The translations under genes were made by a program, and so were the position numbers. Under the pieces are notes generated by a model. That model was given only the letters and a program-made list of their open reading frames with translations, did no database searches and was not told the origin of the DNA. This document shows, in pieces, positions 1-30,000 of a stretch of DNA of 64,000 nt. The stretch spans positions 18,056,304-18,120,303 of the forward strand of contig OV121090.1 in NCBI GenBank assembly GCA_921293015.1, written 5' to 3'. The first letter of the stretch is position 1. Each line of letters opens with the position of its first letter. This DNA comes from Phorcus lineatus. Lineage: Eukaryota > Mollusca > Gastropoda > Trochida > Trochidae.

Positions 1-285
1 GATCTTATCGGGATAATTTCATACTATTATTTGCTAACGTTTATGCTATCATTGATCAGATATTGATCTTCTCTCAAAATGTATATGAAATAAGTAGTGA
101 ATTAAATGCTACAAAAAGCCAACCTCATGATCATGGAAACGAAATAAAGTCTAATTCATCTTTGCAATAATTTAATCACTGTCGTTTTGAAATTCAAACA
201 AATAGTTTCAATCGATTTTTTACCATATAGTAAACATCGCCTAAAGTTGTACATTCCCTTTAATGACCATGAATAATGCACTTAC

Positions 286-1031
286 GCACAGCCTGCCAAG
301 CATGCATTGTCGTAGGTTACACCATCAGCACCACAGACTTTGGCTATGATCCTGGGACATGCACACTCTTCAGTAGCCGTAATAAATGCTGCAAATAGAA
401 TAGATTTTTTGATGCATTAAATTTGGAATTTGAAGACATCAGATAACCATAAGAGTAGTTGCCTCTAGGTTTATAACTTGACAATATATAATGGCACTTG
501 ATATTTCATAAGCACAGTTTGATCTGACCAAATAATAACAATAGTTTGTCTTATGAATTTACGCATGTATTTATGTTTTCTGCAGAATAGCTTTTCTCTA
601 GCTTAGAAATCATCTCAGATTATACATTATACTATTTTCCTCCAATTGTCTGTTGACCATTGGTTATTCAACACTCGCAAATTCAAGTTAGTGGCGTCGT
701 TTTTTAAACTGAATTTGTCTGAAATTCTATTAACGAAAGTATTCATCCTATAACTTTCCCCCATATCTTTCGACTGTGATATACAGGTAAAAATTTCAAC
801 AATAATTTACCAAGCTGAAAGCACCATCATGAAATAAAAAAAACAAATGTTTTCCCCTATAATGATTGCCTCCTTATACTGTGTATTGTATAATGTATCC
901 CTCTATGCTGTCTCAAATACAGGCTTAATAATTTCTTTAAGATAGTTAACACTAAGATACAAGATAAATAATAAATCCAATTACTTACCCACAGAGGCGA
1001 TCAGAACAACGAGAAAAAGAACAGCTTTCAT
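286..1031 (-). CDS. Kazal-type protease inhibitor, copy 1 (3' end outside window)
   Basis: Secreted serine-protease inhibitor; the fold is inferred from the cysteine pattern. Exon 1 is 989-1031 ([14 protein letters not shown] plus the first base of the next codon) and exon 2 is 286-388. The GT donors and the CAG acceptor of intron 1 are visible. Exon 2 carries the Kazal core, ECACPRII then [17 protein letters not shown], so cysteines 1-5 are present with C1-x1-C2-x7-C3-x10-C4-x3-C5 spacing. This is the short C1-C2 form of non-classical (leech-type) Kazal domains. The inferred P1 residue is the Arg two positions after C2, which predicts trypsin-like targets. Exon 3 with the sixth cysteine is missing. 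By alignment, window base 1 corresponds to 5119 in copy 2, so exon 3 should lie about 120-155 bp to the left. The mature domain encoded here is the same as in copy 2, so the duplication is recent. Confidence 0.9.
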
Positions 1032-1084
1032 GTTGGTAGGTCTACTTGTGTTGATCAAGTTGTCTTTTTGTAAGTTTGTCACCT

Positions 1085-1180
1085 TTTTATACAGTTAAGA
1101 TAAAGATATAAAGGTTGTAAAATTCGTATGAAAATGTCGTATTTATCACTCAGTCCCACTTCAAGTTGTTAAAGCTTGGC
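1085..1180 (-). promoter_or_regulatory. Kazal copy 1 core and proximal promoter
   Basis: A TATAAAA box reads on the minus strand at 1085-1091, about 54 bp upstream of the ATG. A block at 1148-1180, with core CTTGAAGTGG followed by ACTGAG, recurs at the same place in copies 2, 4 and 5. The leader between TATA and ATG is also conserved. Transcription probably starts about 30 bp after the TATA box, giving a very short 5' UTR (inference). Confidence 0.65.
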
Positions 1181-1805
1181 ACAGTTTTTTCTCTAGTAGT
1201 CTTTATTATAGAATTTGATTTAATAGCTCAATATAAACATAAAATATAAGTCAGTAATCGATAATGAATGTATATGAGTTTCAGTTCGAAATGGTAAAAC
1301 TCTTTTCTTTTCCCTTTATTATGTGTCAAAATTTTATGAAAATCTGCAATAAAATAATTCTCGTACTTGACTTGACATGACTTAAGTTCATATCTGTCAA
1401 ACTCGTAAAATGTAAAGTGAAATGTTTTCGATGACTAAAATTTGAAGTGCAAATTTGTCCTTTCACCTTTTTTTTTACTTATCTCAAAGTAACTTTTCTG
1501 AATGCATTTATTGCAAAAATATGTTTATGTCTGGACTATCATACGATTTTTTGTGAGTCTAAATATACATGTATGTCCAAATCATTATTTTTTTTAATCA
1601 GATCAAATTACCACTAACAAAACACATAACTTTATCACGCCGATTCGTGAAAGGTGTAATTTTATTTTGATTTGCTGCAGTCATTGCTCTAGCCAACAAA
1701 GGAATAGTTTTAAAAATTAGTATGACAAACAAATTAGAAAAGTAAAAGTTGAATTATTTCATTGTTGAAGTCAGACACTAAAAATATAGCCAAATCCCTC
1801 CTTCA

Positions 1806-1823
1806 TCCTCCACAGATCGTGAT
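1806..1823 (-). promoter_or_regulatory. Conserved Kazal-unit distal block (copy 1)
   Basis: The 18-bp sequence ATCACGATCTGTGGAGGA (minus strand) lies 775 bp upstream of the ATG. It recurs at 7103-7120, 15318-15335 (one change) and 26972-26989, each 0.7-0.9 kb upstream of a Kazal gene, and at 16876-16893 with no gene. It could be an enhancer or simply a conserved part of the duplicated unit. Confidence 0.5.
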
Positions 1824-2031
1824 TATGTTTTTCAGACTGACACTGCTTGAAATGTGAGAAATTTAGGTAAAATAAAAACTTTCTAAAGATCATAAATCAT
1901 AACCTCTCCTATAGCACTTAAATGTCTCATTATATCAAAATATCACTTGAAAGAATTGCTTTTGTCAACTTGCATTTTGATGATTTAAAGTTTATGTCCT
2001 TAAAATCAGAGTCAGATTTCCGTAACATGTA

Positions 2032-2638
2032 CAGCTGCATACCGAAAGTTTCTTCACTTACCACTGAATCGTAGTGCTAATATCATGTAATTTGGGTTTC
2101 GTTTCAACTTTAATAGAATAACTTCAGCAAAACTGACAATGGATGGCCCACTATCCATGTGTGAAATAGCCATTCTTGAACACTTTTTGGGATCATCTGG
2201 TCCCTGGTGCAAAAATTCGAATTTTGGCATATTGATAAAGACAGAGGGGTCACATGTTCGAAATTTCGATTTCAATAATGTCAAATAAAATGTTCCATAT
2301 CGACTCTCTGAGATTAATACCAACATAATCACGTTGACTTTGTGCTTAAGTACAAACGTGACGTATTCTTTAAGAAGGTTTTATTGAGAAAAATAAAAAT
2401 TTGTGTTTTCGGAATTTTGACCACTGGTCACTTCAATGACCTGCCAAAATTATTACGGATAATTGTGGGGTACGATAAACATTTGCCTTAAAGAAGAATG
2501 GATCTACATATGTGTTTTGAAAATTCAATATTGTATGTTTGTTTTTCGCAACGCTACGAACCCTAAAAGGCATCTCAAATTACATGATATTTGAACTATT
2601 ATATCCAGGTATGTGAACAAACTTTTGACATGCAGCTG
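2032..2638. mobile_element. 607-bp TIR element with TA target duplication
   Basis: The element begins CAGCTGCATACCGAAAG and ends with the reverse complement of CAGCTGCATGTCAAAAG. The inverted repeats stay similar for about 30 bp. It is flanked by TA on both sides (2030-2031 and 2639-2640). The paralogous unit around copy 2 carries the uninterrupted site (ACATGTACTCAAG, TA at 7333-7334), so this is an insertion after the unit duplicated. TA duplication and TIRs fit the Tc1/mariner superfamily. A 92-codon minus-strand ORF inside (2054-2332) resembles nothing I know, so the element is probably non-autonomous. Confidence 0.8.
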
Positions 2639-4905
2639 TACTCAAGTCTTGTCCATTTGAACTTTTAAGGACACTTTACTTAAGAGTAAATGGTGCTGGT
2701 TTTTTTACTTGAGATCTATGAAACGATAGATACCAACGCATAACATACTTCTATTGCGCTTGACAAACACATAATCACCGAGCCGAGTGGAGCGAAGAGA
2801 AGAGTTCATGCATGCATGCCAGATACTAACTAAAGACAGTATGTCATTAAACCAATGACTTTTTCTATGCTTTTGTTGTTTTTATAAATGGTCGAAAATA
2901 GGAAAATTTACCCCACCGATGGAAATATGATTATTACATTATTATAAATATATTTTCGTCTTCTGTTTTAGCATAAAAGATGAAAGTTAAGGAATGATAA
3001 AACGTAACAAGCCAATTTCCTCTGAGGACGTAACTTTTTATGATATTCAATGTTGAAAAGGTGTAACATTTCTTTTGGTGTTCAGTTTACATGTAAACAT
3101 CATCATCAATATAAGTCTCAGAAATAACTGAAAAGACTTCTATTGTTGAATTTATGCACAATTCTCTAGTCGGCCCGCATCGTAGCGTATTAGAAGCACA
3201 TAAAACATCCGTAAAAACTATATCCTACTCATGCTGCTGTACGATTGCTTTGATTAAAAAAACAGTTATTTTTTCATGGTCATGATAAATGTTCGATCAA
3301 TGTTTTATCAAATAAGACGATTTTATTGATAATTATAATTATAATGACGTCTCGTTATTGTTTAAAGAGTGGATTATATTCAAGTATCCACTTCTCAATG
3401 ACGGTTCCGTTGTCATTGAGGTGTGTAATTGTTAACGCTTTAAGAGAAGGAGTCTGCTTTGTTGTTTCAAGAATGATCAATCTGAGAAGTCTCAAACATT
3501 GAATGAAACTCTATAGACACAGGAACTTGATATTGTAAGTAAAACGTAGGTAAAAGGAAGATGTATAAAACCTACATCCTCTATACAGTACAGTGAAGGA
3601 GTAAACGCAGCCATATTGCCCATCTCAATTCGTTCCGAATTTAGGTTGAGATATTCAGTAAGAATTTGATGACATTCAAAATGAAACACCCTTACCTGTC
3701 AAACACACATCGTCCCACAAAACCTGGTTTGTTTCAACCTTATGTCACCTTTAGGATAACTTTAACAACACTTCAAGCTATTTGTACTCTCTGATATCAA
3801 ACGTTTCGGCATGGTTTTGACGGCGATTTTTTTCTGAAGCGGCTCCACCATGAATTTGACTGCTTATGCAACGAAATATTTGTTTTAACTAGATATTTCT
3901 AAAACTAACACTGGTAAAATATTTAAATTGATAGGCAAAATTGGTCTTTGTTAGCGCTACACCTAAAGGAGAGTAAAAGATTTTGTTGTTGAGGTTCAGA
4001 GTGACGTCTAGAAAGTTTACATTTTTTTGTGTGCTTTAGTTATGAATCTAAGATCATGTTGTTTGAACTTTGCAGATTTCTAATGGGTAAAGAAAAGGGA
4101 AACCTATACCCCCCTTACCTGTTTTTATGGATGGCATATGGCAGCTTTTTTATTCGATCTTGTAGCAGACATGGTTTTGCTGAATCCTTTTTATGCAGGA
4201 AGCTAAGTACTGGAGACGTGGATTTTCATTAAGATATCAGCAGATGTAATATTGGGTTAAATTTATCCTAATGTGCCTCATGGTGCCCAAATTTCGTTGA
4301 GTTGTTATTAAAGTGTTTTTTAAAAATTCATTAAAAGATTTCATCCATCATCTACATAACAACTTACTCGTTGCTCATACACCGAATATCTCTAAAGGTG
4401 TTTGTCGAGGAACTTTGTCATAACAAAAAATGCCAACCAGACACAATATCACATTGTCAAACTATGACCGCTTTGAAACAATTTGAGTCGGTTTTTATAT
4501 GCCTTTTTTCATAAGATGCTTTGATTTCAGTGTCACAAATGCACCTGTTATCATATTTCTGTTTCTTTCATGTCTTTCATATGTTCAATGTCCATCCCAC
4601 AGAATTCTTTATATATGAATGATGTGTACTTACTACTTATAAGACTACTATGCTTTTAGGATTCACTTTGGGTGCTCTTGTATACCTAGATTATCTCACT
4701 CGAGGTACTATGTTAAATCTGGTCACTTTAGTCATTGATGTTTGAGTACTTTGCTGACATAGTTTTAACAAATCTATTTCAACATATTGTAATTGACTTA
4801 AATTCCATTGGTCAACCAATTTAATCATTGCATTTCAGATACTCTGTTAAAATGCTTTGCTTGCCTTATTTGAGTCACAGAATATGAAATTGTGTTCGCA
4901 ATTTT
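2639..4905. other. Kazal-unit spacer, no gene seen
   Basis: From 2640 to about 3020 this matches the spacer of the copy 2 unit (7335-7720), then the two units diverge. A small hairpin at 3394-3420 has a 9-bp stem (CTCAATGAC/GTCATTGAG). ORFs of 65-67 codons here have no recognisable domain. Near 4750-4905 the sequence again resembles the 3' flank of the other copies. Confidence 0.5.
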
Positions 4906-4911
4906 TTTATT
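4906..4911 (-). terminator. Poly(A) signal of Kazal copy 2
   Basis: AATAAA on the minus strand, 54 bp after the stop codon. The same signal sits 50-60 bp downstream of copies 4 and 5. Confidence 0.7.
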
Positions 4912-4964
4912 TCAGCAAAATATGGGAATTATTTCCAAGATTTTGTTCTGCATGAGAACTTGGA

Positions 4965-6408
4965 CTAGCATCCTGCTTCACTGTTGGTTACAGCAACGTT
5001 CCTGAAAATGAAAAGAAAAACTTTCTTAGTATCATGTTAAAATAAAAATAATCATTGCCCAATATTCATTTTGAAAAACTTTCTAAGTATCACAATAACA
5101 TCAAAATCATCATGACTTGATCTTCTCGGGATAAGTTCATACTATTATTTGCTAACGTTTATACTATCATTGATCAGATATTGATCTTCTCTCAAAATGT
5201 ATATGAAAGAAGTAGTGAATTAAATGCTACAAAAAGCCAACCTCATGATCATGGAAACGAAATAAAGTCTAATTCATCTTTGCAATAATTAAATCACTGT
5301 CATTTTGAAATTCAAACAAATAGTTTCAATTGATTTTTTTACTTAAAGTCAACATCGCCTAAAATTACTCAAGTTCCTGTTTCTCTCAAAAGAACTTTGT
5401 TGTACATTCCCTTTAATGACCATGAAATATGCACTTACGCACAGCCTGCCAAGCATGCATTGTCGTAGGTTACACCATCAGCACCACAGACTTTGGCTAT
5501 GATCCTGGGACACGCACACTCTTCAGTAGCCGTAATAAATGCTGCAAATAGAATAGATTTTTTGATGCATTAAATTTGGAATTTGAAGACATCAGATAAC
5601 CATAAGAGTAGTTGCCTCTAGGTTTATAACTTGACAATATATAATGACCCTTGATATTTCATAAACATAGTTTGATTTGACCAAATAATAACAATAGTTT
5701 GTCTTATGAATTTACGCATGTATATTTGTTTTTCTTTTGTATGTGAAATTAATTAATTGATACAAAAAGAATTTTCTGCAGAGTAGCTTTCCTCTAGTCT
5801 AGAAATCATCTCAGATTGTTTGATATATTATTTTCCTCCAAGTGTCTGTTGACTGTTTTTTAAACTTCATCTTTTCTATATTATTTATTTATAAACCTCC
5901 TTATAAATTCAAAGGAATTGTGACATCATGAAGTGTTAAGATGTTGCTATGCATATTGATGTTTGATGGCCATCAATAGAATTAGAAGGTCCATGTAGCT
6001 GAAGAAACTTTGGTTTTTGCAAAACGTGATAAAAATATACCCCTGTAATATTAATGAAATAAGTCTTGCAAATGTAAATAGATATAGACATTTAATCAAT
6101 ATCATAACATAATATGTATGAATGCTTTATTCTGATTGGCTGAATTACAATATCCTTACGTTAAATGTCGATACATTCAAATTAACTGAGCCAATCACGA
6201 TAAAATGACATAACTTGTTTTATTCAGCCTGATTCAAGATTTTCCCTTAATATTGCGTATTGTATAATGTCTCACTCTATGTGGTCTCAAAAAAAGGCTT
6301 CACACTTACTTCATAATAAGAATAAATACTGAGATACAATATAAATAACAATTCTAATTACTTACCCACAGAGGCGATCAGAACAACGAGAAAAAGAGCA
6401 GCTTTCAT
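4965..6408 (-). CDS. Kazal-type protease inhibitor, copy 2 (complete, 60 aa)
   Basis: Three exons: 6366-6408 (43 nt), 5439-5541 (103 nt) and 4965-5001 (37 nt). They join to 183 nt, giving 60 codons and a TAG stop. Introns are phase 1 (824 bp) and phase 2 (437 bp), both GT-AG. Residues 1-14 are [14 protein letters not shown], a signal peptide that probably runs on to Ala19. The mature part carries six cysteines at 23, 25, 33, 44, 48 and 60, in the non-classical Kazal arrangement, with the family motif [13 protein letters not shown]. Arg27 is the inferred P1 residue, predicting inhibition of trypsin-like proteases. Exon 3 adds [16 protein letters not shown] box lies upstream and an AATAAA lies 54 bp past the stop. 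The product differs from copy 1 over the shared exons at residue 4 (Ala for Val). Possible roles are antimicrobial or anti-parasite defence, or regulation of digestive proteases (inference). Confidence 0.93.
5860..6240. repeat. Insertion within intron 1 of Kazal copy 2
   Basis: This stretch is absent from intron 1 of copy 1, although both flanks align. It contains TTCTGATTGGCTGAA and, farther on, GAGCCAATCACG as an inverted pair, typical of short non-autonomous DNA elements. The exact ends were not resolved. Confidence 0.4.
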
Positions 6409-6474
6409 GTTGGTAGGTTTACTTGTGTTGATCAAGTTATATCCTCCAGTCAATTTACTTCTCTTTTTATACAG

Positions 6475-6560
6475 TTCACTGAAAGCTAAAAAAGGTATAA
6501 AATTCGTATGGAAATGTCGTTTGTATCATTTAGTCCCACTTCAAGTTGTAAAAGCTTGAC
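6475..6560 (-). promoter_or_regulatory. Kazal copy 2 core and proximal promoter
   Basis: TATAAAA reads on the minus strand at 6475-6481, about 67 bp upstream of the ATG. The CTTGAAGTGG...ACT block shared by the array follows at about 6524-6560. A leader conserved in all copies separates the TATA box from the ATG. Confidence 0.65.
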
Positions 6561-7102
6561 ACTGCATTTTCTCTAGTAGTACTTGACATAGAATTAGAAT
6601 TAATAACTCAATTGGAACATAAAAGATAAGTCAGTTATCGATAATGAATGTCTCCGAGTTGAAGTTCGAAAGGTTCAAGCTCTTTTCTTTTCCCTTTAAT
6701 ATGTGTCAAAATTTTTATGAAAACCTACAATTAATTTGTATAATATATTTGGATATGACTTCAGCTCATATTTTGCAAAACTCGTAAAATTAAGAGTGAG
6801 TTGTTTTCAAAGACTAAAATTTAAAAAGGTGAAATTTTTCCTTTCACCTTTTTTTTGCTTAACTCAAAGTACAACTTCTGAAAGAATTAATTGCAAAACT
6901 ATGTTTATGTCGGGACTATCATACGATTTCTTGTGAGTTTAAGTGTATGTCCAAATCATTATTTTGTAAATCGGATCAAATTGCCACTAAGGAAAAACAA
7001 AACTTTATCACACCGAAAAAAATTTAGTCTGACACCGAAATGAGAAAAGTAAAATTTGAATTATTTCATTATCAGATATTAAAAATATGGTCAAACTCTT
7101 CA

Positions 7103-7120
7103 TCCTCCACAGATCGTGAT
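7103..7120 (-). promoter_or_regulatory. Conserved Kazal-unit distal block (copy 2)
   Basis: Exact match to the 18-bp block seen upstream of copy 1, here 695 bp upstream of the ATG. Confidence 0.5.
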
Positions 7121-7779
7121 TATGTTTATGCAGGCTGGTAATGATTGAAAGGTGAAATTTTTAAAAATAACGTTTCAATAGGTAACTAAAGATTATAAAT
7201 CGTAATCTGTCTTATAGCACTAAAATTTCTCATTATATAGAAACATCACTTGAAATAATTGCTTTTGCCAACTTGCATTTTGATGATTTTAAATTTATGT
7301 CCTTCAAATTTGAGTCACAATTCCTTTACATGTACTCAAGTCTTGTCCGTTTATAAAATAAATAGTGCTATTCTTATGCAATGCCATATCTTCTAAGATT
7401 TGAGAAAGCAGCGAAGACACCAACGTGTAAAAGTGAGGACACTAATTTTGCGCTTGACACACACATAACCGAGCCGGGATCAAAACGTGTAGAGTTCAAG
7501 CATGCTTGAATGCTAACGGCGGGACTACCAGATCTTAATCAGAGACAGTATGTCATTAAACCCATGATTTTTCTATGCCTTTATTGTTTTCATAGATGGT
7601 CGAAAATAGGACATTTGACCCCACCCATGGAAATATGGCGATTACATAATTATAAGTAAATTCTCGTCTGGTATTTTAGCATAAAAGACTAAACATATAG
7701 GATGTTAAAACACACAATATCATATATGTTTATATGCGTGTAGTTCGACCTTGTTAGAGTTATGTACAGTGGTCAACAT

Positions 7780-8925
7780 TTTCGTAAATGCTTTATGGGT
7801 GGTTTGATGGACATATTGTAGGACATTTTTTTGTTTTTTTGAAGCTGTTGTGGTTTAGGTTGAGATGTGACGTCAAGGGAGACTACAATTTGTTTAATTT
7901 GCTTTAATGGTGATTCTTAAATCATAATTTTTGTTTGAATATCTCGCAGATTCCTTTTTTAGTTTTTTTCTAGTTGCCGCTAGACCGTCATCTATACCGG
8001 CCAATGTCGTAGCCGAACTGTGTGTGCAGTTTGGAGAGCAGGAAGCAACACACAATCTCGCAGGTTTCAGCACCATCGAAGCTGTCCTCAGTGATGTCAA
8101 TTGATGTTTCTGATAATAGTTTACTCCATGGTCTGATGTCATGTTCCAGGAGGAACATTTTTACATGTAGGGTTATGTTTCTTTACTGACACTGTCGAAA
8201 TTGGAGGCGAAGTCAAGTGCATTGTTTAGAGTTTATTCAGTGATGGATGGGTAAAACTATACCAAATCGAAACAGATGAGGCTTGAGGCTATGTTTTGGT
8301 ATGTTATTGAATCATGTTAGTACTGGTATTTTTCCAGAGGTTAGTTTTGTTGTCTTTGATGATTTTATTGTTTATGCAGTCAAGTATTTGTTTGCTGACA
8401 TGGCCTATTTCAGATTTGTCAGGGTTTATCAGGCGGCATGATGGGTTGTTTTTAAAGTTAGGCATGTTGCATTTTAGTGTGATAAATGCTTCGCATATTA
8501 CCCTGGTTTCAATTCGGTCGTCAAGTTCAAGCTCACGGCAATTGCATTAGCCTCTTCTTTTATATGCTTTTGTAGGTTGTTACTGGATACTTCATAGGTT
8601 TTTGTGACGTTGTTGAGCCATATGTATCAGGATGCATTATATAACATTTTTGGTATTGTATGCCTTTACGTTCGTTTCTCATCTCTTCAATGTCTGCTTT
8701 CATTTTGGTTTTGGAATTCGTAAGAGGGGGTTTTGATCTCGATGTTTTGTGTGAGTTTTAAGGAGATTGTCTTCACATTCTTTTAGTTCAGGTGTAGCAG
8801 GTAGGAATTGTCTGCTTCTAAAGCCAGTTGTAAATATGAATTTGGAGGTAGTGTTTGGATTAAGGTAGATGAATGCCTTCCACCTCATGCGTTTTAGAAA
8901 TAGTTTTTTTTCTGTCAATCTTTAA
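7780..8925 (-). mobile_element. Degenerate reverse-transcriptase retroelement
   Basis: Reading the minus strand from about 8925 downwards, three frames together give the order of a known invertebrate reverse transcriptase family. First come PELKECEDNLLK and, frame-shifted, NVTKTYEVSSNNLQ. Then comes the conserved AFITLK block and CRLINPDKSEIGHVSKQILD near 8400. The catalytic-site stretch with YRDDGLA lies near 8000, followed by ICEIFK. Several stops and frameshifts break it, so it is dead. I recognise the family from many invertebrate genomes but cannot place it firmly; Penelope-like and DIRS-like are both possible. It lies between copy 2 and the copy 3 relic, beyond the end of the duplicated unit at about 7720. 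Confidence 0.75.
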
Positions 8926-9483
8926 ATCTTATTTGTGCTTGTGGCAGTGAGGATGTTTTAGGTATAGTAGTCGAAGTTGACACGATAAGGAGAATTTACA
9001 AGGAAATGATAAATTCAATAATAGGTGCTTCATTTGACACATACCAATCAAGGGAGGTAATTCATGAGCTTCCTTTTATTTCACTCTGCCACATAAACAT
9101 CATAACTAAGTAAGCTTTATTCAGTGTATATCTCAAAACATTGTTATTGAAGAGGTCTGCTGATCTTATGTATTTGGATAGCTTTAACAATGTGATGCTT
9201 TGATTTCATTGTACCACCTTGAGTTACTACTTTTCCTGTTTCAAACATTTCATTGTCTTTCATGTCTCTCTATTGTTTTCATGTCCCTCCGAAAGAATCC
9301 TTGTTGTGAAAATTAATTTTGATTTTAAAGTTATTTTAATTTGTTGATTGATTTAATTAATCAAATTTCTATTATTAATAGTTATTCAGATACTTTCAAT
9401 AAGCTTCTACATCATTGTATGTGTCAAAGAATACAAATGTTTTTTAAAGATCTTTGGAATTATATCCATGACCGTTCTCCACA

Positions 9484-9957
9484 CTGGCATCCTGCTTCAC
9501 TGTTGGCGACAACAACGTTTCTTAAACGAGACCAAAATTTTTCATAGTATCATATCAAAATAAAAATAATCTTATTCTATATCATTGCTTCATCTATATC
9601 ATGACCATTCCTTGCTTCACTTTTATGAAATTTTCATAAATCGTTCCTTACAAAGAGATATAGCTTGTATTTTCATGAATAAGTTACTACAAAGATGTGT
9701 CAAACAAGGTTTATGAAATATGCAGTAAATTCAAAGTCACAGTACATCGGTAGTAATCTTATTGGCACGAAATTGAACACATTTATTCTTGACAATCATT
9801 GCAAACAGTCTTTTAATAATTAAACATGTTATTTAAATTCAATTTCCAGGGGCATACATATACAATAATTCTTTTCTTTAAAAAAATCCTTGCTTCCTTT
9901 TCAACAACATTTCCACGTTAATGCCACAAAACATGCACTTACGCACAGCTTGCCTCA
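9484..9957 (-). pseudogene. Kazal inhibitor copy 3, broken remnant
   Basis: An exon 3 relic lies at 9484-9520 and still spells NVVVANSEAGC. Its acceptor has changed from CAG to AAG and its stop from TAG to CAG. The AATAAA signal seen in the other copies is destroyed (TTTTTTAAAG at about 9440). Only the last 14 or so bases of exon 2 remain at 9944-9957, with the donor intact. The sequence then breaks into unrelated DNA, and no exon 1 is present before the LINE or before copy 4. It cannot make an inhibitor. Loss may have come with the LINE insertion just to the right or from a separate deletion. Confidence 0.85.
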
Positions 9958-10127
9958 CTGTGTTGAATGTTTAGAAGAAAGTATGACGTAATGAATATTT
10001 AAAAAACGTCAGTTAACTTGCCTTTTGTTGATTCAAAGCCGTGCCATTCAAATTAATATTTTAGAAACTTTCCATGAGATTTTGGAGTCACATATTACGT
10101 AAATTATATTACCAATAGGGTTGATGA

Positions 10128-11137
10128 ATAAGATTGTGGATATCGGTACACCTGCGAATAAACTTGATCAATGATATGAATGATATGCTAGATGAAGAAG
10201 GCAGACTGTTAACATGTGAAGAATTTTCCAATACATTTTCGATAAAAACTAACTTTTTAACATACGAATCGGTGAAAAGAGCCATAATGACCTACACCCG
10301 ATCACTTAACATAAACAAATTTAATAGAAAACGTATTGGCCCTATTTACCCATTTAACAAGTTGAAAATTGATACCATAATTGGCGGTAAAAAGTTATAT
10401 GCCTTTCTCCTCAACTCAAAATTTGTTCGTCTTCCAAGTTACTCAAAATGGGGAAAAATTCTACAAAGTGAGTTTACTGAAAATGACTGGAAAATTTTCA
10501 ATATTATTGCAAATAAATGTTCGAGAAGCACAGATCTAAAATGGTTGCAATATAGAATTATTCATAATATTCTACCAACAAGAAAATTTCTTTATAGAAT
10601 TGGATATACATCCTCGCCACTCTGTCCATTCTGTCAAACAGAAATAGAAACAATCAACCATATGTTTTGGGAATGTGAACCTATTTTCAGATTATGGAAA
10701 GAAATAGAATCATGGCTAAATTCTGATCAATTGAAATTAGAATTCATAAATAAAACTATCATTTTAGGAATGAAGGGTAAAAACAATAATCCTATAAATG
10801 CAATCATTTTATTAGTCAAACAGTGTATATACAGATGCAGTATTAATGCTTTTAAACCAAATTTAAAATACCTTAAAACGGAAATTGTACGTTATTACGA
10901 TTTATCAAGATTTGTTTTTTTGTCAACTTCAACAGAAGAAATGTTTTTTCGATATTGGTCAACTTTACATTTATTACTTGGTAGATAGTCTTGTTTTGTT
11001 AGCAAAATGAATTGAAGGAGCCAAATGTGGATTTGTGTATGTTTTTGTTTATCTCGTTTTCCTTATACAATGTTATTTTGCTTGTATCACAAAATATGGA
11101 AAATAAAAAAAATAAAAAATAAAAAAAAAATAAAAAG
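10128..11137 (+). mobile_element. 5'-truncated LINE with RT C-terminal zinc-binding domain
   Basis: The open frame runs from about 10128 to the stop at 10988. Its C-terminal half is the conserved tail of non-LTR retrotransposon ORF2. It has the basic stretch around LKWLQYRIIHNILPTR and then a CX2C-X8-H-X4-C motif (Cys164, Cys167, His176, Cys181 counting from 10134), followed by FRLWKEIESWL. The N-terminal stretch INDMNDMLDEEGRLL is typical of the region just after the RT domain in L1/Tx1-type elements. The RT catalytic part is missing, and stops occur upstream at about 10110-10127. An A-rich tail of AAATAAA-like units at 11098-11137 marks the 3' end. The good frame over about 860 bases suggests a fairly young insertion. 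It is dead because it is truncated. Confidence 0.85.
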
Positions 11138-12651: not shown

Positions 12652-12657
12652 TTTATT
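12652..12657 (-). terminator. Poly(A) signal of Kazal copy 4
   Basis: AATAAA on the minus strand, 53 bp beyond the TAG stop, in the same position as in copy 2. Confidence 0.7.
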
Positions 12658-12709: not shown

Positions 12710-14493
12710 CTAGCATCCTCCTTCATACTTGGCGATAAAAACATTCCTGAAAATGAAAGATTTCTTAGTATCATAGAAAATCATAATCATGTTTTTTTGA
12801 GGAAATCAGTGCCCGTATCATATCTTCTTATGTAATGGTATTGAATTGTCATTGATCATAACATTATGAAATAGCGAAAGTATAAGAAATATGCAGTAGC
12901 TATATAGAGTTAACGTCACTGTACATTCAAGCAATATTTATTGAACCGAAATTGAGGGGAAATGTTCATGGCTGGATCAACAGGACAGTTGATTTTATTT
13001 CAAACATAGTATCTCAATTATATTTATATTCAGATATACTTCTCTCAAGGAATCCTTGCATCCTTTTCAACAACATTTCCACTTAAATAACAACAAAACA
13101 TGCACTTACGCACAGTTTGCCTCGCATGCGTTGGTGTAGGTTACACCATCATTACCACAGACTGGGGCAATATCGTTCGGACAAGCACACTCGTCAGTAG
13201 CCGAAATGAGTGCTGTAAATAGAATGCATTTCATAACATTAAAGGCACTATAACATGCATTTCCCAGCTCAAATAGCTATTACAAGGCTAAATTAGACAT
13301 AGCCACTCACTTTTTATCGGCGCAAAATATAAAGTATTATTCTTTACGATTGATTTGCAATCAGTAACGAAGAAAATTAAGACGGCCGAAATCGGCTTAG
13401 AGGTATGAAAATTCTACTGTCAGCTTTCGACAGGGATTAAATATGGACTGTTAAAACGGCTGGACTAGAAATGAGCGCATCTTTTGAATATACCTTAACT
13501 CTGCCCTGGTAAGTAAGGATGGAATTTTGTTTAAAAGACAAACCTGAAACTTAACCAATTTCTTAAACACATTCATAGCATTGTTGGTGGATAAACCATG
13601 GCGGCTGCCGTTTTGGCTTTTCTGCCTGTGAGCAAAATTACCAAAATAGTAGTTCATGTGAATTTGTGGCAACGTTACATTAAATACTTGCGGTCTTTCA
13701 GAATTGACTTAACCTAAATGTACCTACATGTATATTCCAAAAACTTATATGGTAGATTAACCGAGTGCGGGTGGTTGTTAATATTGTGAGATAAGTAGTT
13801 ACTGTGCATTGTTGTAAATCATGAATTATTAGTGTGTGCTAGAGCCTTGAAATTCTAAATATTAAGAAAAATCATAACTTGTTAAAATTTGGTAGGCAGG
13901 TGCTTAGTTTGAAGTTGTTGATGGATTTTACATTAGTGTTAATTGTATAACTTCTAATTTGACTTAGGTTTTTTATCCCATTGTTTACATCTGATTTTGC
14001 TATGGTGTATATGTAATCCATCTTGATGACCACACATCTCACCTGAAGGAGGAAGCATATATTCCGAAATTTCGTTATTGTAAAAGTTAGAGTAATTGTT
14101 ATGCAGAAATGTCTTTTTTATCCTTTTTAACAACACAGTACATGTAAATAAGAAACTTGGTAATGTATGTAAATAAAGCGGTATTTCATGTGTCATTTTA
14201 TAACTTTGTTGCAAGTAAATAAGTTCTTGTTTGCTACACACCGTAACGAAAATAGATCTGTGAAATTACTTTTTTAGACAGACAATTGTAGATATATTTA
14301 TAAATTTAAGCACTCTAAAATAAGGTTTGTCTATAAACTTTATTTTTCATATCAACCTTCTCCAACTGACTTTTGACAGAAATGTTCACCGCCTACTTAA
14401 TGTTAATTTGACATTCAGATACAAGATAAAAAATCCCTTTAGTTACTTACCCATAGAGGCGATCAGAACAACGAGAAAAAGAACAGCTTTCAT
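12710..14493 (-). CDS. Kazal-type protease inhibitor, copy 4 (complete, 60 aa)
   Basis: Exons are 14451-14493, 13110-13212 and 12710-12746, joining to 183 nt and ending in TAG. Intron phases are 1 and 2, as in the other copies. Exon 1 gives [14 protein letters not shown]. Exon 2 carries [17 protein letters not shown] and then [11 protein letters not shown], and exon 3 adds [11 protein letters not shown]. All six Kazal cysteines are in place (23, 25, 33, 44, 48, 60). The reactive-site loop differs from copies 1 and 2: after C2 it reads Pro-Asn-Asp rather than Pro-Arg-Ile. The inferred P1 is therefore Asn with an acidic P1' residue, which is unlike a trypsin inhibitor. This copy may target a different protease or have lost tight inhibition (inference). 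Intron 1 is longer (1,238 bp) because of inserted repeat DNA. A TATA box and an AATAAA flank the gene. Confidence 0.93.
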
Positions 14494-14545: not shown

Positions 14546-14639
14546 TTTTATACAGTTTGGTTTTTGATTAAACGGCTATAAATTTGGTATTGAATGTTGT
14601 TTATATCGCTCAGTTCCACTTCAAGTAGTTATGCTTGGT
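14546..14639 (-). promoter_or_regulatory. Kazal copy 4 core and proximal promoter
   Basis: TATAAAA reads on the minus strand at 14546-14552, about 53 bp upstream of the ATG. The array-wide block with CTTGAAGTGGAACTGAGCGAT lies at about 14604-14639. Confidence 0.65.
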
Positions 14640-17731: not shown

Positions 17732-17741
17732 TAAATAGTTT

Positions 17742-19250: not shown

Positions 19251-19254
19251 TTAC

Positions 19255-19500
19255 AATTAAAATAGCTGAGTCAGCAAAATTGTGAATTATTTCAAAATGG
19301 AAGATACCACGTTTCTAAATTTTGATGAAAATTTAATCAGAAATCATCAAAATTGAGAAATTGCCGCTACATTTTGGTTTATTATATTAGAACATCATGA
19401 TTTAAGGTTATTTGAGTTTTGTCACTGCGACTGAGGAGCGATCAGCCTTAATCAGAAATATATGATTACTTCCTCCAACACAGGCTATGGTTGAAAATTT
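19255..19500 (-). pseudogene. Second orphan fragment of a Kazal-unit upstream region
   Basis: It retains a TGAGTCAGCAAAATTGTGAA landmark at about 19268 and a decayed distal block (ACTTCCTCCAACACAGGCTATGG) near 19468, in the same order as upstream of copy 5. There are no exons nearby. The match is weaker than at 16.5 kb. Confidence 0.4.
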
Positions 19501-19809
19501 AAACTTTAAATGTATTTTGTTCTTTATATGATATGTTGTTGACCAATTTTCTTAAGAAATATCATAATAAACATTATATCAAGAATCATAAATTGGCTTA
19601 GATTCCACGTTCAATTTTCAATAATTTGAATGTAAACACATAACAGAAATGACAAACTTAGTCAAATAAGTAAATTTGATAGAAACACAACGGGGTAGAA
19701 ACATTTTACAAGGGAACTGTTCATACAGAAAGTTTTTTACAATGAAATTCACACAGTGTAGAGTATAATAGCGAGTATATCCTCTTTGAGCATCGATGTA
19801 TGCAAGGTT

Positions 19810-20030
19810 ACATCGGGGTATTGGCGATGGCAGGCGTCATTAGACGCCATATGACGCCATGTGGAATATGATTCCATGCGCGAATCAGACACTACTCAAG
19901 TTGTTGTAGGTTGGTTGGAGGTATGGGTCTGGCCCGAACCTTAGTATTCAGGTGATCCATCATGTGTTCAATCGGGTTCATGCCTGGTGATCACGCAGGC
20001 CACATTTAAACGTGCACACTCAGTGTTATC
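19810..20030 (-). mobile_element. Tc1-like transposase fragment B (C-terminus)
   Basis: The minus strand reads WPA-stop-SPGMNPIEHMMDHLNTK, then ARPIPPTNLQQLE, a stop, and LIRAWNHIPHGVIWRLM. This is the C-terminal end of a Tc1-like transposase around the third catalytic acidic residue. Two in-frame stops show that it is a relic. It belongs to a different subgroup from remnant A. Confidence 0.8.
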
Positions 20031-22777: not shown

Positions 22778-22779
22778 TC

Positions 22780-23235
22780 GGGGAACCATTACTCTGTGTC
22801 TTTGCCTCACAACAATTGTTCAACTGTCCAGCATATTCCACAAAAATGCCTCTCTACAGAAGAGTGACCCCTACTCTGGCACTCCTTTCTGACAAACATG
22901 TTCATTAGACAAAACGAGTTGCATGATTAGCTGAAGACAATTTGGGCTGCTTGAGACGTGCCTGTATCCTGACAATTTCAGTTCATTCAGATACTGATGC
23001 GTCAACATTGTGCCCCATGATCGACGCCAGTAGGTCTCAACAAGGCTCTATCCTCTTGCGAGTCATGTGCATGGTGTATGGGATATTTTCAATATGTTTA
23101 TGTCACATTTATGTCAATCATACAAATGCATTTATGTCAACATATTTGATAATGTAGTTCTCTATCAAAATAATTCTTCATTCAGTTACTAATTCATTGT
23201 TGATAACGGCGGAAATGATGATGTCATCTTTTTCA
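22780..23235 (-). mobile_element. Tc1-like remnant C, partial duplicate of remnant A
   Basis: Homologous to 15975-16435 over about 460 bp: GGGGAACCATTACTCTGTG, CCTCACAACAATTGTTC, TTCATTAGACAAAACG and CAACATATTTGATAATGTAG occur in the same order and orientation. The C-terminal half of the transposase is absent, so this copy is shorter. Confidence 0.65.
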
Positions 23236-23267
23236 TGTGTTACAGTAAAATTGATTATTTGTATCTA

Positions 23268-23633
23268 ATAAGGGTGCGCGGTATTATCAGAATATCGGTA
23301 TATTGCAGTACAGAAACACCACGATACGTACCGGTACAGTCATCTTAAAATATCCAATATACCGTAGGTTTTAGAATGAACATTTTCCGTGTAAAATTGC
23401 TGAAAAACGTAACAAAAACACTCTTTGATTTTACTGAAAGTTGTAGAAAAATTGTGAACATGCAAAGTAAAAACCAGTCGCTGAATTACCTCTCTTTACA
23501 AAACGACGTCTAATTGAGCATTGATTACTGTTCTTATTGCTGTTCTTAGTCAAAAGAACATAGAAAAACTGAAATATGAAATGTACCAATATATTGCAAT
23601 ATGGAAATGAGGACCGATATCCATCCTTACTAG
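23268..23633. mobile_element. hAT-like MITE candidate
   Basis: The left end TAAGGGTGCGCGGTATTA and the inverted right end TAAGGATGGATATCGG both lead into stretches such as ATATCGGTATATTGCAG and AATATATTGCAATATGG. This style, with CACGATACGTACCGGTAC inside, is typical of small hAT elements (recognition from memory). I could not define an 8-bp target duplication. Confidence 0.45.
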
Positions 23634-24075
23634 GAGATAGGAAATACCCTCTATAACCTTTAAAAATCTAGTAAAGGGTTTGGTATGAAAGAAGGCAAAC
23701 TAATACCAAATCAGGTTTTCAAATAAAAATAAATCGTCCTTACCTTTTATTGATAACAATTATGATATATAATATTCCATTTGTTAAACTTCCATGATTC
23801 ATTGTTATTCAACAATCGCAAACTATATATGATTAACTAAGTGTTGGCTGGAGGTTATTGACATTTAAATATGAGAGTGTCAACGAATCCGAGGAAGTTT
23901 GAATTTTTTAAATTTCTACTGCAACCTTACCGTTAGTTATTAGAACTTCAAGAATGATTTTTAAATACCAAATTTAGGAACTTTGGTTGTTTCATTTTTG
24001 AAAGAGGTATAGTTACTGAGGTCAAACCAATTGTAATAAACAGTATAAAACAGCGCATGATTCAATGGCAGAGAG

Positions 24076-24081
24076 TTTATT
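24076..24081 (-). terminator. Poly(A) signal of Kazal copy 5
   Basis: AATAAA on the minus strand, 54 bp after the TGA stop. Confidence 0.7.
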
Positions 24082-24134
24082 TCAGCAGGATATGACAATT
24101 GGTTCCATCATTTTGTTCTCCGTAATTATTTGGC

Positions 24135-24353
24135 TCAGCATCCTGCTTCACTGTTGGTGATAACAACATCCCTGAAAAAAAGGAAATTAGTAGATTAATA
24201 ATTAATAATTAAAAATTAATAATAACACTATATCTTAAGAGTTTTAAAGCCAATGTTAAAACTTACCTTTTCAGGAAATATTACCCATAGGCACATTTTC
24301 ATGTACAGCGCTTTGAGCATATGTCATATGGATAAGGCGCTTTATAAATACTC

Positions 24354-24421
<68 letters not shown>

Positions 24422-26101
24422 TCAATTTCAAATTCAAACATATTGCATGAATAAAATGTTCATGAACATTAATATATACTTAAAGTATTTCTGCAAGTTG
24501 CTGATTATCCCAAACAAAACTGCTACTTTGATGACCACAAAACATGCACTTACGCACAGCTTGCCTCGCAAGCGTTGTAGTAGGTTACACCATCAGCACC
24601 ACAGACTGGGGCAATGTTATAGGGACAGGCACACTCGTTAGCCGAAATGAATGCTGCAAACAGAGTACATTTCATTGTAAACTAACCTTAGAATTAGAAG
24701 TAATCATAATCGTTAATAACCATAAGAGTATATAATATAATGTAATAATATATAGCATATAATGGTACAAAGTTTTATAATTTAACAATTTGTAAAGGTT
24801 ATGACTCTTTTTAGAACACTGTGAAAAAGAACAATTTGCCGTATGAAGGTATTTCATGTTAAATGATTGTAACCTCAACAATTTCCAAAGGTTGGGTTTC
24901 TAAAGTATCACTTCTTTCAAAATCTTCTCAGATTGAGATACATAAATTCATTTCAATTATTAAAGATTGTTTTACATTTTTTGTGCCTCTATCGATGTAT
25001 AACAGCAACAAATTGTATAACATCGCGTAGCGTAGCGTAGCGGTGTTATACAAAATTTGTTGCTGTTATACATCGATAGAGGCACCATAAATGTAAAACG
25101 ATCCTTATAATTACAAAATCAACTCTACTTCTACAGATTTTCTGAATAATTTCAACAAAACTTGAATAAGTGTCGTGAACATTACGTTATTTTGCAGCGT
25201 GTTACACACAACAATACGTGGTGGAATTAAAATTGAGAAATGCATGTACTAAAACGGAAGATGATTTAATTTCGTTTTCATCAGCATTGGCGCTCATGCA
25301 ATCAAAGTTCGTCTTAACTCGAGTCCGCATTTTTGGAACAACCTCTTATTAGCATATCACATGACATTCAAAATGGCTACCGTTTGTTGAGCGATTCGAG
25401 TTATCAAACTGTTGCATGGACTTATTAAAATCAAGAGTTTTAGGTGAAGGTAATTGATTCTTTTGGGGGAGGAAAGTATTATCTGGTTATCCACTCAATT
25501 ATAAAGATGATGACATGCGTACATTTCTTATTTTGCAAAAAAAACCCCACAGTAACGCGATGTTGTCATAACCGGACTAGCCGTCGCGTCAATTTGTTCT
25601 GTCAGATGGTGACGTCATAAAGTATGAATGCACGAGGTATAACAGCAAATTTTTCTGCATTCATCGATAAATGGTTGCATGTTTTTGAGAGCTCTCGTCC
25701 AATCAGAATCGCCGAAAAACGTGTAACAACATCATTTTGTAATTATTATATTTTAACAACATATACAAATCTACAAAGATGAACTAAGAATCTATGACAT
25801 GTTGATATACATATGTGCTATTTTAAGAGCCATTTGTTTGCTTACCAATGGAAACGTTTGGCCATGTAGCTGAGATAATTTATTTGCTGTTTTCAAAACG
25901 TGATAACCCGATTACATCCATAAAATGAATGTGTAAATAGATTAAGAAATGTAAGTATTCCTAATTACCTTTATCCATCGACTGTTGTTATCTTTCTTAC
26001 CGACTCTAATCTGTCTCCTCACACAATGGTTCCACACTTACTAACTTTAGTTACTTACCCACAGTGGCGATCAGAACAACGAGAAAAAGAGCAACTTTCA
26101 T
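24135..26101 (-). CDS. Kazal-type protease inhibitor, copy 5 (complete, 59 aa)
   Basis: Exons are 26059-26101 (43 nt), 24554-24653 (100 nt) and 24135-24171 (37 nt). They join to 180 nt and end in TGA, where copies 2 and 4 use TAG. Exon 2 is one codon shorter, before the first cysteine. Exon 1 gives [14 protein letters not shown]. Exon 2 carries NECACPYNIAPVCGADG and then VTYYNACEASC, and exon 3 adds DVVITNSEAGC. Cysteine spacing from C1 to C6 is unchanged. The inferred P1 residue is Tyr, which predicts chymotrypsin- or subtilisin-like targets rather than trypsin. Intron 1 (1,405 bp) contains a strong hairpin, and intron 2 contains an (ATT)n tract and a SINE/LINE-like tail. Despite these insertions all splice sites are intact, with a TATA box upstream and an AATAAA downstream. 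It is the most rightward gene of the array in the window. Confidence 0.93.
24290..24420 (+). repeat. SINE/LINE 3' tail followed by (ATT)n microsatellite
   Basis: The phrase GGCGCTTTATAAATACTC followed by about 21 ATT units (24358-24419) resembles the 3' end of L2-type LINEs and their SINE partners, which end in short A/T-rich tandem units. It lies inside intron 2 of Kazal copy 5. Confidence 0.65.
24983..25085. repeat. Near-perfect inverted repeat (43-45 bp arms) with CGTAG loop
   Basis: The left arm 24983-25025 (GTGCCTCTATCGATGTATAA...) pairs with the right arm 25041-25085 with only a few mismatches. The loop is a tandem GCGTA run. Weaker pairing extends about 20 bp outward (TTTTACAT/ATGTAAAA). 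It probably belongs to a MITE. A decayed third copy of the AACAGCAAAT...CATCGATA phrase occurs near 25640-25670. It lies within intron 1 of Kazal copy 5. Confidence 0.75.
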
Positions 26102-26155
26102 GTTGGTAGGTTTACTTGTGTTGATCAAGTTATCCTCCAGTCAGTTTGCTTCTCA

Positions 26156-26252
26156 TTTTATACATTGTGGTTACTGATTAAAGGGTTATAAAATTGTTAT
26201 GGAAATGTCGTCTGTATCGCCCAATTCCTCTTCAAGCAGTTTACGCTTGGCA
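26156..26252 (-). promoter_or_regulatory. Kazal copy 5 core and proximal promoter
   Basis: TATAAAA reads on the minus strand at 26156-26162, 55 bp upstream of the ATG. The array block, diverged here (TTGAAGAGGAATTGGGCGAT), lies at about 26214-26252. Confidence 0.6.
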
Positions 26253-26971
26253 GTTCTTCGCTTTCGTAGTATTATGTGATCATATTACAATAAAAGTGAT
26301 GTTATGGCTGAAATCGATAATGTAGATCATGCTCGAAATAGTACCGCCTTATCTATTAATGAGTTGCAGATATTATGGAAATTTTAAACACATTATATTA
26401 GTTCTTTGTAAATAAAGACAGATAAATTTCTTTAAATTGTTTTCACGGACTTAATGTATGACTTGAAATTTTAATTAGCAGAATCTTTCTGGCTGAACTA
26501 TTGAGTTATGAATGTTCTTTATTCTTAGCGGATATCTGTACGAGCCTATGAACGATGGGTTTTACGGTAAAAGAATCTGTTTTATATTTGTCAAAATATG
26601 TAGTAAATATTTGAATCTTTATCTTTGACGAGTTAAGTAAAAATAAGACAACTTAAAGGATAAACATTTCTTTATTCTGTAATGCTGACATTTAAACATT
26701 TTGATTCTTATGCCTTTGCTTCCAAATTGTAGAACCTTGAATTGTGTTTCATATTATTCTCCTTTTGAAATACCTGGTCAAAATGCCAACAAGCAAACAA
26801 TCAACTTTCTTTCACTGATTTAACATTTTGATTTTCAAAATTCTATGGTCTAAACAACAAAAGAATTGAGTCAGACAAAATATTTGTGAATAATTAAATT
26901 GTGAATAATTACATTGTTAAAATGATTTAATTTCTCTGTCAGACATTATGAAAATATTCATCAATCCTTCC

Positions 26972-26989
26972 TCCTCCACAGATCGTGAT
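26972..26989 (-). promoter_or_regulatory. Conserved Kazal-unit distal block (copy 5)
   Basis: Exact copy of the 18-bp distal block, 871 bp upstream of the ATG. Homology with the other units fades just to the right. Confidence 0.5.
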
Positions 26990-27009
26990 CATTACGTTTT
27001 CAGGCCTAA

Positions 27010-30000
27010 TTTACTTTAATGTGCGTTATGATGACGACCATTTTCAATATGATGTATAGAGATTACTACGGGAGGAAGTGGGTCATATGACTTTTACGAA
27101 ACGAGTGTGATTATTAGTATTACTCGAGCGAGGGCGATTTTATTGCTTTGAAATCGCATGGAAATATTAAGAAAATGGCTTGCTTCTCTTGCGACAGCTC
27201 GCTTTAGTGACGATAAAGACGACAAAATATAGTTACTCGAAACAAACCTTGCTAGACAAAAGGGATATGTGCATTTGTGCTCATATTGAAAATATGTCAC
27301 CAATTTACCATTTACTTGATTTAACATATGGATGATAAATTGTTGAATGAATTCCTTCAGAATTTTGAATCATAAACTGATTTAAAGGGCCTGTTATAAT
27401 GACAAACGCATTTTTTGGGGAAACTTTCTATATTCTGGTTAAGGTCTACAGATAATGGAAGTTATTAGTTTTGAGGTTGAAAAGGTGTTCAAAAATCACA
27501 CCTCTCACGTAATTCAGATGTACTCGTTCACAACAGTAAAAATTTTGCAAATGAAACATTTTGTCTTAAATTAACTCTTAATGTAACCTGAAGTTGAAGG
27601 CTAATTTCGTTATGTTCTAAATCATATATACTACTAGCGAACGGTTATACGCTACCAGATCAATCATATAAGTACAGGGTCGAGTTATCATATTTCTGCT
27701 AAATGGAATGTCAGTGTAGGAATGTCCTTTTTGGAGAATTTAACACAAAGGAATGTCCTTTCAAGGAGATCAACAGACGGACGTTGTAGAGGTAAAGATG
27801 TCTAATATGTAAAATGCAAAATGAATAAAAATGACAAACAGCACTTATTGGATGAAATTAATTTCATTGTGATTTTTCACTTTTAGAATTCTTTTGGTTT
27901 CAAGAAGTTAACAAATGGTGAATCATCTGTTTTCCAATTATCTTTTGGGTTACAACCATTAGTAAAAAGTAAAAATTCAGTGTAACCACATGGTTCTGAA
28001 GTCAATCAAATGGTTCCGTATATTGCCTTGCCTCAATGATTTTGCAATAAAATCAGTCTCCGTGTAAACAGGGTTAAACCCCAAACCCCCTCAATTGTAA
28101 ATTACAAAGTATTTGTGTATTGCGACCCAGAATTGATAAAATCACATTGCCTTTCTCTACTTAATATTCTTATAATAAAATTCCATTTATATATATGTAT
28201 ACCACCTTCACATAATTCGTGCAGAGCTTCTAGATGAACAAAATGGTAAATTTTCCTATACCCAAAAAGAAAAAGAAATCAAACAATTTAAATTTATGTC
28301 GTCCGTTCTCAATGTGTCGTCTGCGATCTTCATTATGCTAGCGAAGTGTCGCCTGTCAAACGCGTTGAATGTAAACAAGAGTATATTTGTCTCTTAGACG
28401 TTCAAATATTTTGATCGTCCAGGTGTTCGATTTGATAAACAGTTAAGTGTCACGCACATTGACACCAACTTCCGATGTTGTCTGCCATTCAATCTATCGT
28501 CTGCTATATTGAACCGTGTTTTAGCTATGCTGTGTATTCTTTGTTCATTCTGTCCACTATTGTATTGATGATCTTTTTGAAGGTTTTTAGTTCCGGTATT
28601 GTTTCCTGCATTGCGTTTGTCGTCTTCTCGCATTTATCATCCATTTATCATTTATTCAGGTTCTAGGTGTAATATCCACTTCGGTCTTCGTCAACCTGGT
28701 GTCGTCTGCTGTCTTGGTTATGTTTTCAGCTATATATTGTCCGTTGCATCTTTTGACGCAGTTTATCTAACACTTTATATCTACTTACAGAATAATTCAT
28801 TTAGGACGGTTTGGTCGTAAACCGTAATTTTAAAACACACACAGCGGGAATATAGGTTGGCATTGCTTAGTAGGTCATTTACCTAATTTACATGTAACTG
28901 GGACGCTGAATTTCACCTCCTAATATCGATATAGCCGTTTTTTATTCACAAGTGAACATTTCGAAATCGAAAATGCCACACAACGAGTTTCTGTCATGGT
29001 CATAAGAAATGTTATCTCAATGCTGACCGATTCCTTGGCTGAAAAGGAATTGTTTTATTTTTTTGTTTCACAAACAGATACTTATCATCGTGACAAATTT
29101 ATCTTGAAACATTTTCGTGACCCTTCCACTTACGAAACACTACCATAGACCCCATTCCAAACTACCTAAACCTAAACGAAACTGTTGCCATAGAGGAATG
29201 TTATAAAAGAGTGATGTGATCATAACACAAATTTTGTTAGGACATAGTAAATCTTTGATCAACTGTTAGGATGAAATTGATGCATCTGAAGTAAATCCTA
29301 CAAGAATTAACAGAACTGTAAACTTATTTCCATCTCTGATTTCGTAAAAATATGAATACCAAAGAAGACATAGTTCTTGTCATAGTGTGCCTGTTGGGCT
29401 ATTATTATTATCAATTATAGCTATACACACACGCACCTGCTGAACTCTATGCACCTTACCTGTTTGAACGCTGTAACAAGTGCATGTCACGCCCCCTCAT
29501 TCCCCTTCCCCCTTCTTCCTCCTTTGCGACAACCTCACTCTAGACCACCTTCGACCAGTTATACGAATGCGTAGGCAACTGTCGTATTCCATCATGATTT
29601 AATTTTTCTGGAACAGAAATGATTGAGAGCAAACATAACAAGTTACATAAAAATATTGGGACGAAGTGCGCCACTGGCAAACGCAAACTGGTTGCGCTAA
29701 GGAATGAAATAACCAGTTTCAATCCATACGATTCGCGCAGGAACTGGTTGTTTTAAACCTCGTAAACAACAACTTTGTAACTGTCGTTTTACATTATAAC
29801 GTTTTATTTTCTATCTCTGTGCTCGTTGCACCTTCTGCCTTCTGCGCCTTATTTGCCAAACATCCAAACCAAATGTATTCTCAAATTGATGACCTGATGT
29901 CGATACCTACAAAGCTCTGTTCGTGCTCAACGCCCCTAGAATAGTAAAAAACCTAACATCCAATCATTAAACTGTTAGGTCATTATTTCTCTTTATGTAC

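Follow-up and report, generated by a model that had tools for sequence, protein, structure and literature searches.

The stretch analysed here, hereafter the window, comprises 64,000 nucleotides of the gastropod Phorcus lineatus (C16:18056304-18120303, in an assembly of 958 Mb and 74 contigs) and covers one end of a cluster of small genes of the Kazal protease inhibitor family. The cluster contains 12 intact three-exon genes, K1 to K12, within about 81 kb (C16:18000941-18082404), together with two remnants. We consider it probable that these genes form a single-locus cluster of secreted, single-domain, non-classical Kazal inhibitors that grew by tandem and inverted duplication, with paralogous exchange, selection or both acting on the copies, and with reactive sites that fall into a few discrete classes. 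K1-K5 lie on the plus strand and K6-K12 on the minus strand; the window takes in part of K9 and the whole of K10, K11 and K12, with a truncated pseudogene between K10 and K11. The original prediction, made from the window alone, described an array of four genes and one pseudogene. All five copies are there, but they are only part of the array, whose 12 intact genes extend past the window.

Locus, gene anatomy and inhibitor family

A genome-wide search with the exon 2 peptide returned at least 52 matches, and the 12 with E-values of 9.9e-8 or lower all fall within C16:18001321-18080960; the next-best match among those listed (E 1.8e-4) is on C39. With an 81-nt exon 1 query, all 13 matches listed lie in the cluster, 12 of them at 95-100% identity and one, a remnant, at 83%. 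Among the matches listed, which are lower bounds, we found no close family copy elsewhere in the genome, and the remaining Kazal matches, on C39, C9, C29 and elsewhere, are only distantly similar. Within the window, four exon 1 matches have 0-3 mismatches over the 51 places of the query and the next-best site has 21; this gap, together with the Pfam matches described below, indicates that the window copies are more than chance resemblances. A sliding comparison of the window with the exon patterns found nothing comparable outside the genes already noted, all of which are on the minus strand.

Two further Kazal-related sites were observed outside the window. At C16:18034712-18034969, a further copy has kept a promoter-like stretch, its leader, exon 1 and a splice donor, and this exon 1 is still open and reads as a signal-like peptide. 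We considered a thirteenth gene at this site, but a pattern scan downstream found no Kazal exon, and it is therefore treated as a remnant. At C39:43708957-43716287, distant Kazal exons are packed in about 7.3 kb, several of them nearly identical as protein; judged from sequence, this run would be either one multi-domain gene or another cluster.

The layout of the cluster is visible in its self-comparison, which gave 28 blocks of at least 350 nt. The stretches around K5 match those around K6 and K7 in inverted orientation (74-90% identity), direct duplications connect K1-K3 (89-94% identity), and K8, K9 and K10 form a tandem series with a spacing of about 5.15 kb that includes the largest block, a 4.8-kb direct repeat at 95.5% identity. 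Tandem duplication plus one inverted duplication would account for the growth of the cluster.

All 12 genes share exons of 43, 100 or 103, and 37 nt separated by GT-AG introns (phases 1 and 2, from the exon lengths), and their spliced proteins have 59-60 residues. Exon 1 encodes a putative signal peptide (the N-terminus, here that of K1, is hydrophobic and signal-like as judged by eye), while exon 3 holds Cys6 and the stop codon. In every gene, TATAAAA begins 59-63 nt upstream of the ATG and AATAAA lies 52-54 nt downstream of the stop. The 30 nt directly before the ATG are 90-100% identical among copies (mean 96%), and identity drops sharply upstream of this conserved 5' leader block, which would fit a transcription start about 30 nt past the TATA-like box.

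The spliced proteins match both Pfam Kazal_1 (PF00050) and Kazal_2 (PF07648) in 12 of 12 cases, at E-values no higher than 0.01; for member 1 the scores are 32.4 bits against PF00050 (cut-off 21) and 34.6 bits against PF07648 (cut-off 22.8). Two of the real copies, K10 and K2, were searched, and both align to leech-derived tryptase inhibitor (LDTI, 1an1) across the whole domain with all six cysteines in register: K10 through residues 2-40, at E 4.7e-9, and K2 through residues 3-40, at E 9.2e-8. Whole-sequence E-values are better for agrin and rhodniin, and in the case of K2 for a three-domain ovomucoid as well, but they add up several Kazal domains. The cysteines of a Kazal domain pair 1-5, 2-4 and 3-6, and their spacing here is 1-7-10-3-11 in all 12 proteins (C1-x1-C2 and C4-x3-C5). 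According to passages of PMC9112662, non-classical Kazal domains have a C1-C2 spacer m of 1-5 and a C4-C5 spacer n of 3-8, and with m = 1 and n = 3 all 12 proteins are within these limits. Passages of PMC3082530 assign LDTI, LDTI-C, bdellin B-3 and rhodniin to a non-classical group II characterized by Cys-x3-Cys, where the criterion is the CSH motif, a Cys-x3-Cys helix held by two disulfide cross-links. The Cys-x3-Cys spacing occurs in the sequences of 12 of 12 copies and fits a group II assignment, under which each gene is predicted to encode a secreted single-domain, leech-type inhibitor of about 40 mature residues. Both the Kazal identity and the non-classical, leech-type spacing proposed in the original prediction thus apply to the entire family.

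Compared with LDTI (PDB 1an1/1ldt/2kmo) and the other group II inhibitors, K1-K12 share the small domain, C1-x1-C2, C4-x3-C5 and the C2-Pro-P1 loop, but are one residue longer between C5 and C6, lack a tail beyond Cys6, and come from three-exon genes in a 12-copy cluster with four P1 residues. The leech Whitmania acranulata has six tandem LDTI genes (PMC12467411), so that this type of inhibitor has recently expanded in tandem there too, although with fewer copies and in another animal; P1 variation is not stated in the passages concerned. In the razor clam, passages of PMC9198434 describe the tandem inhibitors scSI-1 to scSI-14, for which no positive selection was detected. They resemble our cluster in the tandem expansion of small protease inhibitors and in this negative result, but belong to a different MEROPS inhibitor family, I84, and not to Kazal. 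An induced transcript with a Kazal domain is mentioned for the Mytilus digestive gland in a passage of PMC6215123. We found no description of the cluster in the titles and abstract openings of the open-licence literature on Kazal inhibitors, which does not prove that it is undescribed.

Exon homogeneity and intron divergence

Exons and introns of the same genes have diverged to very different extents. Across the 66 pairs, which are not independent, synonymous differences in exons range from 0.02 to 0.26, whereas non-coding path distances reach 1.0; the latter come from global alignments and are inflated where introns are unalignable, so that values from locally alignable stretches are safer. 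K12 and K5 differ at 1 of 100 sites in exon 2 and at 0 of 33 third positions, against 63 of 264 and 22 of 107 alignable sites in introns 1 and 2 (21-24%). A similar contrast holds for K12 and K6 (exon 2 1/100, third positions 0/33; introns 33/135 and 27/122) and for K12 and K7 (3/100 and 1/33; introns 10/52 and 17/125). Between K12 and K1, 3 of 33 third positions are different, and for K12 and K2 the alignable intron is too short for the contrast to be assessed. The young pairs K1-K2, K1-K3, K2-K3 and K8-K9 display no exon-intron contrast.

Several patterns point to exchange between paralogues. All four pairings of Phe or Tyr at P1 with Asn or Ser at residue 47 are present (Phe-Asn in K1-3, Tyr-Asn in K6 and K7, Phe-Ser in K5, Tyr-Ser in K12), which requires recombination or repeated mutation. 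The Phe/Tyr split also conflicts with the non-coding tree, in which K5 is sister to K6 at 98% ultrafast bootstrap on an imperfect alignment. In addition, the last 73 nt of K7 intron 2 differ at only 3 of 73 sites from the Arg-type gene K9, in a tract common to K9 and K10, whereas 20 of 64 sites differ in the stretch before it (p 2e-5, uncorrected for the many pairs inspected). The same tract differs from that of its relative K6 at 10 of 70 sites (p 0.04) and from that of K5 at 14 of 70 (p 0.004). Conversion driven by reverse transcripts was considered but dropped, since conservation is much weaker in the 3' flank than in the 5' leader.

It is quite possible that the contrast reflects purifying selection on exon nucleotides, through splicing of 37-103-nt exons, codon use or leader function, and not gene conversion. 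This would explain why the leader, which is non-coding, is conserved as strongly as described above, and why the contrast persists between reactive-site classes, whose exons are conserved beyond their introns: the mean between-class exon synonymous divergence of 0.196 (39 pairs) is well under the non-coding distance. Purifying selection accounts less readily for the shared K7-K9/K10 tract, which sits in an intron, or for the lower proportion of synonymous differences (pS) within classes. Within-class pairs with a non-coding distance above 0.5 have a mean pS of 0.10 (18 pairs) against 0.196 between classes, at similar mean non-coding distances of 0.72 and 0.81. Exon-level exchange, constraint or both are therefore the likely cause of exon homogeneity, with the exons held alike by exchange between paralogues, by selection on exon sequence or by the two together while the introns would drift.

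Reactive-site classes and selection

The residues at P1 and P1' form four pairs: Phe-Asn in K1, K2, K3 and K5 (all outside the window), Tyr-Asn in K6, K7 and K12, Arg-Ile in K4, K8, K9 and K10, and Asn-Asp in K11. For the window genes, the residues read after C2-Pro in the original prediction are the same, and their assignment to P1 agrees with the register of the LDTI alignment. We mapped the 12 contact positions of Kazal inhibitors, as listed in passages of PMC1236909, onto K1-K12 by taking C2 as P3. Four of these 12 columns vary (P1, P1', P14' and P18'), against 12 of the 28 mature columns outside the contact set. P1 itself takes four residues, the most states of all 60 columns, and is the only difference, through one base, between the exons 2 of K2 and K6 and between those of K5 and K12. 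The Arg class differs from the Phe/Tyr class at P1', P14' and P18' as well. In avian ovomucoid third domains the contact residues are reportedly hypervariable, an observation attributed to Laskowski in 1987. There too P1, P1', P14' and P18' vary on one scaffold, but no excess over the rest of the domain could be shown for K1-K12.

P1 dictates specificity, according to passages of PMC3082530. The mature peptide would present its C2-C3 loop to a serine protease much as a substrate does, in the canonical mode of inhibition. Going by P1, the Arg copies (K4, K8, K9, K10) would most likely act on trypsin-like enzymes, and the Phe and Tyr copies (K1-3 and K5; K6, K7 and K12) most likely on chymotrypsin- or subtilisin-like enzymes; the target of K11 is uncertain and its inhibition may be weak. 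Such inhibitors may serve in defence or in digestion. The outcome is a small number of discrete reactive-site classes and not continuous diversification.

Several results weigh against our reading of the cluster as a set of inhibitors with discrete reactive sites whose exons are held alike by exchange, selection or both. In a codon model run on two topologies, the coding tree and the non-coding tree (values separated by a slash), omega in the C2-C3 loop is 1.11/1.15 against 0.59/0.71 for the remaining mature residues, an excess that is not significant (p 0.12/0.22) with 12 paralogues and little power. Contact positions show no excess either (0.79/0.83 against 0.62/0.76; p 0.50/0.77). The Asn-Asp pair of K11 is not typical of a strong inhibitor loop. 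Among K5, K6 and K7 the exon-intron contrast is weaker, with 0.16-0.20 in alignable introns and 2-3 of 42 exon synonymous differences, and part of the contrast could be due to synonymous constraint alone because between-class exons are also conserved.

Loop-specific positive selection, which is not significant on either topology, is consequently unsupported, and neither the column counts nor the codon model yielded an enrichment of contact residues. All omega values need care because the synonymous sites are themselves conserved. The original prediction had stated beforehand that the lack of an excess of replacements in the C2-C3 loop over the scaffold would refute it; the estimate is higher in the loop, but at low power and not significantly so. 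Its picture of specificity changing on a fixed scaffold receives partial support: the assignment of P1 stands, but the loop excess is not significant, and other mature positions vary too. Likewise, the signal peptide is indeed more conserved (omega 0.44/0.41 against 0.87/0.89 in the mature part; p 0.05/0.02), whereas the scaffold, given its 12 variable non-contact columns, is not fixed.

A dosage array, in which the many copies raise the output of a single secreted inhibitor and the differences at P1 are drift that is tolerated or only slight tuning, is possible, if rather doubtful. The lack of a significant excess in the loop and contacts would be expected of it, as would the homogeneous exons and the near-identity of the products: K8, K9 and K10 have an identical mature protein from which K4 differs at one mature residue, and the seven Phe/Tyr genes encode nearly one protein. 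It fits poorly with the number of states at P1, with P1 as the sole exon 2 difference in K2/K6 and K5/K12, and with the further differences between the Arg and Phe/Tyr classes. We think a more elaborate cassette system unlikely, in which short exon-centred exchange would homogenize signal and scaffold exons, single bases (TTT to TAT) would switch P1, and selection would hold the Phe/Tyr, Arg and Asn classes apart as an inhibitor panel against several protease types.

The Kazal fold could have been adopted for a role other than protease inhibition, such as an antimicrobial, shell matrix or carrier function. The K11 loop and the appearance of the word Kazal in several papers about shell proteins and immunity of molluscs agree with this proposal, which nevertheless seems quite improbable given the canonical loop (Pro at P2 in 12/12, an aromatic or basic P1 in 11/12, an invariant Asn at P15') and the LDTI-like character of K10 and K2 across the whole domain. 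That some copies are assembly duplicates of two haplotypes, as the 4.8-kb block in the K8-K10 stretch might suggest, is very improbable, as introns and flanks are strongly divergent in most copy pairs, the contig spans 49.6 Mb, and K8, K9 and K10 differ mosaically (K9-K10 3/395 in the 3' flank versus 67/391 in the 5' flank).

Window features and significance

In window coordinates, all on the minus strand, K9 (copy 1) comprises its TATA-like box (1085..1091), exon 1 with the putative signal peptide (989..1031, 43 nt) and the Arg-Ile exon 2 (286..388, 103 nt). The exon design of the original prediction was right in its lengths and GT-AG sites, but the 37-nt exon of this copy is not visible in the window because it lies at -153 to -117, beyond the edge. 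K10 (copy 2) has its TATA-like box at 6465..6471, exon 1 at 6366..6408 (43 nt), the Arg-Ile exon 2 at 5439..5541 (103 nt), exon 3 with Cys6 and the stop at 4965..5001 (37 nt) and the AATAAA polyadenylation signal at 4906..4911. The truncated pseudogene (copy 3, 9372..9965) lacks exon 1; it retains exon 2 only as its final 24 nt, followed by intron 2, an exon 3 that has lost its stop, and a partial 3' flank. Near it on the plus strand is a piece of a retrotransposon, an open frame of 286 residues that matches zf-RVT (10128-10988). K11 (copy 4) follows with its TATA-like box (14546..14552), exon 1 (14451..14493), the Asn-Asp exon 2 (13110..13212, 103 nt), exon 3 (12710..12746) and AATAAA (12652..12657). 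For K12 (copy 5), the corresponding features are at 26156..26162 (TATAAAA at -61 from the ATG), 26059..26101, 24554..24653 (Tyr-Asn, 100 nt), 24135..24171 and 24076..24081. The array had been drawn to 27010; exon 1 of this last gene ends at 26101, with only the TATA-like box noted beyond it.

A Pfam scan of 10 of the 67 listed open frames identified a Laminin G exon (56045-56305, plus strand, E 1.3e-11), which probably belongs to an unrelated neighbouring gene, and a frame of 173 residues that matches the FLYWCH zinc finger (44903-45424, minus strand). Elsewhere in the assembly, the 19-kb mitochondrial contig has a long TA-repeat beside cox3 (about 6172-9000) and the order cox3-nad3-nad2-cox1-cox2-atp6, with genes named from translations and 13 TGA codons in the COX1 frame. 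Octopine dehydrogenase gave at least 11 matches; the 10 over the family cut-off lie at C5:22.65-34.49 Mb, several close together, and by eye one translated frame shares about half its residues with PDB 3c7a, which we take to be the scallop enzyme. These mitochondrial features and the octopine dehydrogenase genes would suit a mollusc or a related lophotrochozoan. The myticin and egg-lysin families gave no match, in searches that do not establish their absence.

The Kazal cluster is real and larger than first noted. It is ordinary in kind, a known type of gene family, with homogeneity at the level of exons. Because its 12 paralogous mini-inhibitors include two pairs whose exons 2 differ at P1 alone, what one residue at the reactive site does can be measured directly, and the same set lets the effect of paralogous exchange on the reactive site be measured. 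Nonsynonymous-to-synonymous rate ratios (dN/dS) from such arrays are misleading when synonymous sites are homogenized or constrained.

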